Positions 56,107-62,152 of a stretch of DNA of 64,000 nucleotides are shown in pieces. Location of the stretch: positions 1-64,000 of the forward strand of contig JAFYVH010000021.1 of NCBI GenBank assembly GCA_017549205.1. The letters run 5' to 3'. The translations under genes were made by a program, and so were the position numbers. Numbering within the stretch: position 1 is the stretch's first letter; the number at the start of each line of letters is the position of its first letter. The stretch is from Clostridia bacterium. Its GTDB lineage: Bacteria > Bacillota > Clostridia > UBA1381 > UBA9506. The notes beneath the pieces are model-generated. The model made no database searches. It was given only the letters and a program-made list of their open reading frames with translations, and was not told where the DNA came from.

Positions 56107-56119
56107 AAAAGTAAATAAA

Positions 56120-56151
56120 AAAGGCTGAACAAATTTTGTTCAGCCTTTTTT
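56120..56151 (+). terminator. Terminator after the M23 gene
   Basis: AAGGCTGAAC pairs with GTTCAGCCTT, followed by TTTT. Confidence 0.92.
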
Positions 56152-60137: not shown

Positions 60138-60174
60138 AAAAAAGCCATATCACACATTTTGTGTAATATGGCTT
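60138..60174 (-). terminator. Terminator of greA
   Basis: AAGCCATAT-ACAC and GTGT-ATATGGCTT pair around ATTTT, with a T-run on the minus strand. Confidence 0.85.
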
Positions 60175-60725: not shown

Positions 60726-61532
60726 TCAATCATTATTTACAATTTTACTCACTTTTATCATATAATCTTTACAAAATCTCTTTATATTTTCCTCATTAAT
60801 ATTGTTATATTGCTGAAAAATTAAGAATTCTAAGGACATTTGATTTAAATCTAAATATTTTGTTATATTTTTAAATTTCTTCTTTGAGCCAAAAATAATT
60901 TTACTTGAGCGATTGATATCTGAAGAAATGTTTAAAACCTTTTTTTCTTCAACCATTGAATCAAGTTGTATTAAAATCTCATTTTCTTCTTGCGATTTTT
61001 TTTGTTCAACCGGAATGAACAAGCCATATTCTTCTAAAAAAAACTTCGTAATTTCGCTAAACTTTGCTTCGTTTTCTGATTTGATTATTATTTTTTTTAC
61101 ATATTTATAAATTTTCAAAATATATTGTCTTGCTTTTTCTGGGCTGTCTGTTTCAATAATCAGAGTGGAGATTCCAAGGTTAATGCCTTTGCTACCCGCA
61201 TATTTTCTCAGTATATCATATAATTTATACTTAACAAATTCTGTACCGGTAAATGTTTCAAAAGTAGTTTCCATTTTTTTCCTTATTAAATTGTTTTTAT
61301 ATGCTTTGTTTGATAAAATTATATGTGTGATGCCTTCTTTAATTAAAAAGGAAGAAAATTTTTCAATGGCTTTTTCCCTTGGATTTTTTTCTGTTACAGG
61401 AACCAGGTAAACCGGAATTTTTATTTTTTCTTCTTTTATTTCTTTCTTGGTGTGTAGTAATGCTTTTTTTATGCCAAAAGTCTGATTAAAATGAGAAAAA
61501 ACAGGCTCAAAGTGAATCATTGCTGCCTTCAT
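60726..61532 (-). CDS. Uncharacterised protein of the origin region
   Basis: The 268-residue protein is lysine- and isoleucine-rich, without signal peptide or membrane helix. I recognise no family. An alternation of beta strands and helices ([65 protein letters not shown]) suggests one or two Rossmann-like alpha/beta domains. It lies between the RNase M5-like gene and greA. Its ribosome binding site is buried in a perfect hairpin (61539-61578), so its translation is probably controlled. Confidence 0.7.
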
Positions 61533-61538
61533 AAAAAA

Positions 61539-61578
61539 TCCTCCATATATTGTTTAAATTAATACAATATATGGAGGA
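61539..61578 (-). promoter_or_regulatory. 15-bp perfect hairpin burying the ribosome binding site of the unknown gene
   Basis: TCCTCCATATATTGT (61539-61553) and its exact complement (61564-61578) flank a 10-base loop. In the minus-strand mRNA the 3' arm ends ATGGAGGA, which is the ribosome binding site, followed by TTTTTTATG. The structure could block translation, or end transcription as a terminator whose T-run leads into the start codon. Confidence 0.8.
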
Positions 61579-61582
61579 AGGT

Positions 61583-62152
61583 TTAAAATAATTCAAAAAA
61601 TTCTTTTTTAGTGTAAAGAGCATTTATAACATCCAAAAGCATGTTAGCAGAAATACGAGGTGGTAAATTTAATTTTTTTGCCAACTTTTCTCTTTTTTCT
61701 CTACTGTCTTTTTTTCCTGAAAGACCAAGAGTGAAAAAGTCTACCTTTGTTATTTTTTCTTCTTCCTTTTGCTCTTTATGATATCCGGCTATGGCCAGCG
61801 CCTTAATAAGCGCTTCATCCCGCATACCCTCAACACCTAAAAGACCTTCTTTTCCCGGTTTTTCTTTTCTTTTTTCTTTTCCGGAAAGAGAGGGGATAAA
61901 AGCATGCTTTACATTTTTATCTTTTAAACAGCTTTTGATGTAATTTCTGATTTTAAAACCAGCACCGTCAGAATCCGTCAGCACAATAATGCCTGTTTCG
62001 TCAGCTAAGCGACCTAATAATGAAAGCATTTCTTTGTTTTTAAAAATCATAAAACCATCTGTTTGAATGATGTTGGCATCGAAAAGGGAAGAAAGGCGAA
62101 TTTTATCATATTTTCCCTCAACCACAATGGTTTCTTTAATAATCTCTTTCAT
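61583..62152 (-). CDS. RNase M5-like Toprim protein (DUF4093 type)
   Basis: The 189-residue protein has an N-terminal Toprim domain with the catalytic Glu in IVVEGKYDK (about residue 13) and the acidic pair in IVLTDSDGAGFKIRNYI (about 57-62), then the DUF4093-like C-terminus (LGLSGKKDSREKREKLAKKLNLP). Relatives are RNase M5 enzymes that mature 5S rRNA in low-GC Gram-positives. The start codon overlaps the dnaN stop by one base (TAATG). Substrate is inferred from the family. Confidence 0.85.
   Translation of the reverse strand: MKEIIKETIVVEGKYDKIRLSSLFDANIIQTDGFMIFKNKEMLSLLGRLADETGIIVLTDSDGAGFKIRNYIKSCLKDKNVKHAFIPSLSGKEKRKEKPGKEGLLGVEGMRDEALIKALAIAGYHKEQKEEEKITKVDFFTLGLSGKKDSREKREKLAKKLNLPPRISANMLLDVINALYTKKEFFELF

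Follow-up and report, generated by a model that had tools for sequence, protein, structure and literature searches.

A hairpin behind a dnaN operon in Clostridia as a predicted terminator, Shine-Dalgarno lock and nested sigma-E-type promoter

In the window analysed here (the whole stretch of 64,000 nucleotides from a gut Clostridia bacterium), a perfect hairpin lies between the last gene of the dnaN operon, which encodes an RNase M5-like protein, and a gene encoding a protein of 268 residues. We propose that this hairpin is a three-in-one junction element, comprising the terminator of the operon, a lock on the Shine-Dalgarno sequence of the next gene and a nested sigma-E-type promoter, and we put the probability of this reading at about 0.7. 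The 268-residue gene would then probably be read only during spore formation. The hairpin, the locked site, the T-tract, their conservation, the sigma-E-like motif, the spore-forming gene set and the recurrence of the same anatomy at unrelated genes can all be read directly from the genomes compared. The genus of the window (g1) is represented by 10 genomes, and g3, g4 and g6 are other genera of the same family, for which a set of 20 genomes, metagenome-assembled from uncultured organisms, was used.

The junction and its hairpin

The gene order on the minus strand is dnaN (63255-62152), the RNase M5-like gene (62152-61583), the hairpin, the 268-residue gene (61532-60726), greA, soj and spo0J. 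The first-pass annotation had described the locked gene as belonging to the origin region, which holds in that the gene adjoins dnaN and soj/spo0J, and the term means no more than this. It had also recognized an RNase M5-like enzyme upstream. Toprim and DUF4093 domains were found in this protein above the Pfam cut-offs, whereas the score against TIGR00334 was 96.2 bits, below the cut-off of 110.65 bits for assignment as RNase M5, and the gene is therefore named only M5-like. Farther along the same strand, a 12/12 match to a sigma-70-type promoter (TTGACA-17-TATAAT, window 60729-60701, minus strand) precedes greA and begins inside the last codons of the 268-residue gene, and boxes resembling it were seen at the same place in relatives. 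Two near-perfect terminator-like inverted repeats, at 56117-56151 and 60142-60174, mark where the M23/serS and greA genes end. The features of the junction are listed in Table 1.

Table 1. Coordinates of the observed and predicted features of the junction in the window
Feature	Position	Strand	Remarks
RNase M5-like gene, last of the dnaN operon	61583..62152	-	Toprim + DUF4093
Stop codon TAA of the RNase M5-like gene	61583..61585	-	4 nt before the stem
Predicted -35 element GAATTAT, inside the M5-like ORF, in its final codons	61588..61594	-	14 nt upstream of the -10; weak PWM score, -0.1 bits
5' arm (anti-Shine-Dalgarno arm)	61564..61578	-	Sequence and fold; nearly invariant across 10 genus genomes
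Predicted -10 element of sigma-E type, CATATATT, lying in the 5' arm	61566..61573	-	PWM 7.9 bits; 1 vs 7 changes
Loop, in which the sigma-E transcript is predicted to start near 61559	61554..61563	-	7 nt past the -10; leader of 27 nt
3' arm of the hairpin	61539..61553	-	Sequence and fold
Shine-Dalgarno GGAGGA within the 3' arm	61539..61544	-	Sequence; opening cost computed
T6 tract, read as terminator U-tract and Shine-Dalgarno-to-start spacer	61533..61538	-	T-tract after the stem in 10/10 g1 and 2/2 g3
Downstream gene, 268-residue protein of no named family, adjoins greA	60726..61532	-	Two-domain Rossmann-like model

The minus strand from 61578 to 61539 reads TCCTCCATATATTGT / ATTAATTTAA / ACAATATATGGAGGA and is followed by TTTTTT (61538-61533) and the ATG start codon (61532-61530). 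Its 15 uninterrupted pairs enclose a loop of 10 nt, and GGAGGA ends the 3' arm, so that a flawless 15-bp stem including the GGAGGA and a T-run touching the start codon, both noted in the first-pass annotation, were borne out. The minimum free energy of the region is -27.5 kcal/mol (z -4.14), a stability that was equalled in none of 200 dinucleotide shuffles, and the hairpin ranks top among the inverted repeats of the surrounding 8 kb. A 14-mer from the hairpin arm, searched in the 1.39-Mb genome with up to one mismatch, matched its own two arms only, which rules out a repeated mobile hairpin. No Rfam family matched the window at gathering score.

The cost of opening the Shine-Dalgarno sequence was computed for read-through RNA and for the predicted sigma-E leader, the start of which was placed 7 nt after the -10. 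It amounts to 13.7 kcal/mol in the read-through RNA of the window locus and 2.6 kcal/mol in the predicted leader, and the corresponding ranges across 12 genomes are 11.6-17.9 and 1.1-7.4 kcal/mol. The earlier claim of a ribosome binding site locked by the stem is supported by this cost, since the other 31 window genes tested did not exceed 8.6 kcal/mol. In g6, where the terminator stands upstream of the site, opening costs 1.9 kcal/mol in read-through RNA and 2.2 kcal/mol in the predicted leader; for spoIVA of the window genome, the leader of which is not locked, the value is 4.2 kcal/mol.

The hairpin also has the form of an intrinsic terminator, i.e. a stable stem with a G+C-rich base followed by a T-tract, and the T-run appears better read as the U-tract of a terminator. 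A simple terminator scan did not list it, the loop limit of the scan being 8 nt against the 10-nt loop. Elsewhere in the window genome, look-alike terminators (CCTCC...GGAGGA-TTTTT) follow stop codons without a gene beginning after them. The corresponding junction is readable in four other loci of the family (three g4 genomes and one g6 genome), and in all four an ordinary terminator lies ahead of a separate Shine-Dalgarno sequence. Taken together, these terminators point to a likely history in which either the dnaN-M5 operon terminator moved into the region where the next gene starts or that start moved into the terminator.

Conservation and the predicted sigma-E promoter

Conservation of the stem in close relatives, on which the first-pass annotation had staked its proposal beforehand, was found in all 10 genus genomes; the hairpin, the Shine-Dalgarno sequence in its 3' arm, the T-tract and the start codon are all kept there, despite 21-49% identity of the genus orthologues to the 268-residue protein of the window. 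The two g3 genomes in which the gene occurs show the same layout with a different sequence (CCTCAATATAC/GTATATTGAGG). A covariance model built from eight genus hairpins gave the locus as the best match, on the strand of the gene, in 9 of the 10 genus genomes; in G004 and G001 a marginally higher score went to this hairpin as read on the opposite strand. Compensatory changes, which had also been sought in the stem, appeared in part: paired changes are seen only when the hairpin is compared with G004 and g3, whereas covariation in the eight aligned g1 hairpins was not above shuffles (181/500), because most pairs never vary, and covariation within g1 was dropped as proof of structure.

The two arms have not drifted equally. 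Over the whole arms, 6 changed cells were counted in the 5' arm (10 genomes) vs 12 in the 3' arm (8 genomes, G001 and G003 being left out for an indel there), and over CATATATT (arm positions 6-13) there is 1 change in the 5' arm vs 7 in the 3' arm that pairs with it. Such a difference goes beyond what pairing requires and suggests that something reads the 5' arm, and the near-invariant arm seems better read as a sigma-E -10 element. In G009, G005 and G007 (L005, L006 and L008, respectively) the M5-like ORF extends into the 5' arm and gains a short tail ending FLHIL, so that the arm would there be protein-coding sequence, promoter and RNA stem at once.

The predicted promoter at the locus is GAATTAT-N14-CATATATT. 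It was scored with a PWM trained on 29 promoters of spoIVA, yqfC and yabP-type genes of the same family, the first two being sigma-E genes in C. difficile (PMC3789822). The motif learned from these upstream regions is [GT][AC]AT-N-A-[AT], 14 nt, [CA]ATA, and in the same genomes spoIVA has KMATAAW-N14-[CA]ATATA and yqfC has TAATGAA/TAATTAA-N14-CATAA. For spoIVA, upstream sequence was obtained from 17 of 19 loci (L079 lies at a contig end and L087 has no motif), and 14 of the 17 fit the training pattern. The gene spoIIIAA was kept out of the training, and SpoIID, with no match in any of the 10 g1 genomes, was not used for calibration.

A two-part site was accepted with a -10 of at least 6 bits and a -35 of at least -0.2 bits, thresholds that were set after the sites had been looked at. 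Promoters were tested in 19 genomes; a twentieth that carries the gene, G015, was left out, its gene being cut by the contig start. A sigma-E-like site was found within 110 nt upstream in 16 of the 19 orthologues, including 10/10 in g1 and 2/2 in g3, and in these 12 genomes the -10 always lies inside the 5' arm. In the 10 g1 genomes the -10 scores 6.5-7.9 bits with the 29-site PWM, and the -35 is spaced by exactly 14 nt but scores low, from -0.1 to 4.1 bits; an unconstrained scan placed the best-scoring site elsewhere in 3 of the 10. No site passed in three orthologues (L064, L069 and L071), of which L071 has one by eye. As controls, such sites were recorded in 5.0% of dinucleotide shuffles of these upstream regions and in 10 of the 325 genes of the genome sample, two of the ten being spoIVA and the target itself; AT-rich DNA makes them cheap, and 57 of 200 shuffles of L065 pass. 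A sigma-A promoter in the 5' arm was also considered: TATATT is a fair -10, but by eye there is no -35 at 16-18 nt, and this candidate was set aside after the sigma-E calibration.

Spo0A is present in 20/20 genomes of the family, SpoIVA in 19/20 and YqfC in 19/20, so by gene set the members of the family are spore formers. SpoIID gave no match in any of the 10 genus genomes; of the ten remaining genomes of the family, seven gave strong matches and one a weak match. The spore formers of the genus may lack this usual engulfment hydrolase or hold a diverged one. Elsewhere in the window, the gene of an M23 peptidase with a G5 domain (window 54493, plus strand) has a near-perfect sigma-E-type promoter, GTAATAAT-N14-CATATAAT (17.4 bits), which suggests that it is probably another mother-cell gene.

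The 268-residue protein matched no family in a Pfam search. Its AlphaFold2 model (pLDDT 91.1) resembles two-domain Rossmann enzymes, e.g. acyl-ACP reductase and shikimate dehydrogenase, and the best VIA-align match, with no sequence family behind it, is acyl-ACP reductase 6jzq_D (Z 10.4, 241 aligned, with a large rmsd of 7.2). Fold matches of such quality (Z near 10, rmsd 7-8) assign the modelled protein no function, and no glycine-rich nucleotide motif was seen by eye in its alignment. The gene is present in 10/10 genomes of the genus, 17/20 of the family and 20/95 of the order, and its orthologues in other families have no M5 gene upstream. A mother-cell role of the protein is what we infer from the predicted promoter alone.

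Recurrence of the anatomy at other genes

A genome sample of 464 kb (the window plus 20 further stretches, about a third of one genome) contained 325 genes with a Shine-Dalgarno sequence. Only two of them need 10 kcal/mol or more for the site to be opened, the target and a gene encoding an M14 peptidase (M14 by Pfam; L199 8722, minus strand, contig C15 of G000), and both have the fused anatomy. The M14 gene has a T-tract with a TTG start within it, and its 5' arm contains CATATACT, with TTCTAAA placed 13 nt upstream; in spoIIIAA, TTCTAA stands about 14 nt before [CA]ATA in 16 of 17 loci. The gene ahead of the M14 peptidase is, judging by its sequence, presumably rubredoxin-like. The M14 orthologue of G006 matches this layout. 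T-tract spacers occurred in 10 of the 325 sampled genes, mostly without a hairpin.

Nine further matches of the covariance model, taken from the twenty family genomes, were read, and a start codon was found behind the T-tract in six. Among these six, four have a sigma-E-like -10 in the 5' arm, namely an SpmA-like gene (G018), ClpP-like genes (G012 and G013) and the M14 gene (G006), and two (L181 and L183) have no sigma-E-like site. At L180, L184 and L185 no ORF of 70 codons lies behind the hairpin. The hairpins at L181 (G006 contig C22, about 94 kb) and L183 (G006 contig C25, about 6.7 kb) lock the Shine-Dalgarno sequences of small genes without a known family. For the G018 gene Pfam gives only Gate (PF07670), and from its sequence we take it to be SpmA-like. 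Its promoter, read by eye, is TCATAAA-N14-CATACTAT, and spmA is under a sigma-E promoter in C. difficile (PMC3789822).

There is, in our estimation, an even chance that a general developmental insulator exists in this family, i.e. a fused element of about 50 nt with terminator, nested sigma-E promoter and Shine-Dalgarno sequence that has arisen repeatedly at unrelated genes (Rossmann-like, M14, SpmA-like and ClpP-like). Mother-cell genes could then be placed directly behind unrelated vegetative genes and be silenced twice, by termination and by the lock, until sigma-E initiates inside the hairpin.

Proposed mechanism, alternatives and known systems

During growth, RNA polymerase transcribing dnaN and the M5-like gene would stop at the T-tract, the stem and T-tract acting as an intrinsic terminator. 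RNA that reads through would have its Shine-Dalgarno sequence shut inside the 3' arm, and because this arm is itself the Shine-Dalgarno sequence of the next gene, such RNA would be untranslatable. In the mother cell, sigma-E polymerase would bind the hairpin DNA, with the -35 in the end of the M5-like ORF, and start in the loop, so that the message would lack the 5' arm, could form no terminator hairpin and would leave the ribosome site free for translation. Terminator, lock and promoter would thereby occupy the same 50 bases. Termination, the sigma-E start within the hairpin and the sporulation role of the protein are all three steps that we infer. Translation of the M5-like ORF takes the ribosome up to or into the 5' arm, which it would melt, so that some leakage through the lock is probable unless the transcript has been terminated beforehand.

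The same movement of ribosomes could serve translational coupling, in which the ribosome ending the M5-like ORF melts the 5' arm, frees the Shine-Dalgarno sequence and has the second gene translated only in step with the first. The position of the M5 stop, at or just before the stem in 10/10 g1 and 2/2 g3 genomes and inside the 5' arm near the loop in G005, G007 and G009, is what coupling would expect, but the T-tract, the sigma-E-like motif and the greater constancy of the 5' arm over the 3' arm are left unexplained by it. The terminator kept at the junction by the g4 and g6 orthologues argues against co-expression with the M5-like gene, and in other families M5 is absent upstream of the orthologues, so that we regard coupling as unlikely. 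These g4 and g6 terminators, together with the look-alikes elsewhere in the window genome, would be consistent with a hairpin that is no more than an intrinsic terminator ending dnaN-M5 transcription, in chance contact with the next start, the lock being a by-product and the promoter lying elsewhere. An accidental contact of this kind seems improbable, however, given that the overlap with the Shine-Dalgarno sequence is kept in 10/10 g1 and 2/2 g3 genomes and that the -10-like core is more constant than pairing needs; moreover, the transcript of any promoter upstream of the hairpin would be both terminated and locked.

The first-pass annotation had proposed an RNA switch, answering temperature or a binding protein or cleaved by the M5-like RNase, for which the locked Shine-Dalgarno sequence and the adjoining M5-like gene speak. 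We consider a switch very unlikely, and the proposal is not supported: the same anatomy recurs at the SpmA-like, ClpP-like and M14 genes without an M5 neighbour, the orthologues outside the family also stand without M5 upstream, and the window has no Rfam family. Fifteen pairs are also very stable for a thermometer. As to mimicry of a 5S target, no evident likeness was found between the hairpin and the ends of two 5S genes, both cut at contig ends with the processing helix unreadable.

The three-in-one reading has precedents for parts of its design. In B. subtilis, a large hairpin has been proposed to block translation of sigG (spoIIIG) from spoIIG read-through RNA, and RNA initiated at the sporulation promoter of sigG itself is unable to fold it (PMC5942855). 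As in sigG, read-through RNA would here be locked by a hairpin and own-promoter RNA free. The sigG case differs in its sigma-F/sigma-G promoter and its 20 or more pairs, and no terminator is named in the account given by PMC5942855. In the present element the stem runs into a T-tract, a housekeeping operon (dnaN) lies upstream and the motif is sigma-E-like. In gene e (lysozyme) of phage T4, longer early transcripts hide the ribosome site, and late promoters in the region of the 5' strand give transcripts that lack this strand and are well translated (PMC3014915). The nesting of a promoter in the 5' strand of a hairpin is thus shared with the prediction made here, whereas T4 gene e depends on a phage late sigma factor and its description in PMC3014915 includes no terminator function.

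With intrinsic (Rho-independent) terminators the element shares the G+C-rich stem base, the T-tract and the position at an operon end, but its 3' arm and T-tract double as the Shine-Dalgarno sequence and spacer of the next gene. Its predicted promoter is like those of spoIVA, yqfC and spoIIIAA in the family (KMATNAW or TTCTAAA, 14-nt spacing, [CA]ATA -10), but the leaders of these genes are not locked. A survey of the open-access literature by listings, for fusions of terminator, promoter and ribosome binding site in sporulation, gave only the sigG and T4 cases.

The working principle is already known from sigG and T4 gene e. What looks new is its fusion with a terminator, the placing of a sigma-E-type promoter behind a housekeeping operon, and the repeated occurrence at unrelated genes. 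If the reading is true, a single element of 50 nt can silence sporulation genes during growth in compact genomes, acting on both transcription and translation, with the key (the sigma-E -10) hidden inside the lock, and the unnamed greA-adjacent gene found in 20/95 genomes of the order would acquire a role in sporulation. Mother-cell genes in uncultured spore formers could then be recognized easily by a signature consisting of a locked Shine-Dalgarno sequence, a T-tract ahead of the start codon, a 5' arm containing [CA]ATA, and KMATNAW or TTCTAAA 14 nt upstream, and the single case of B. subtilis sigG would be widened to a recurring design.
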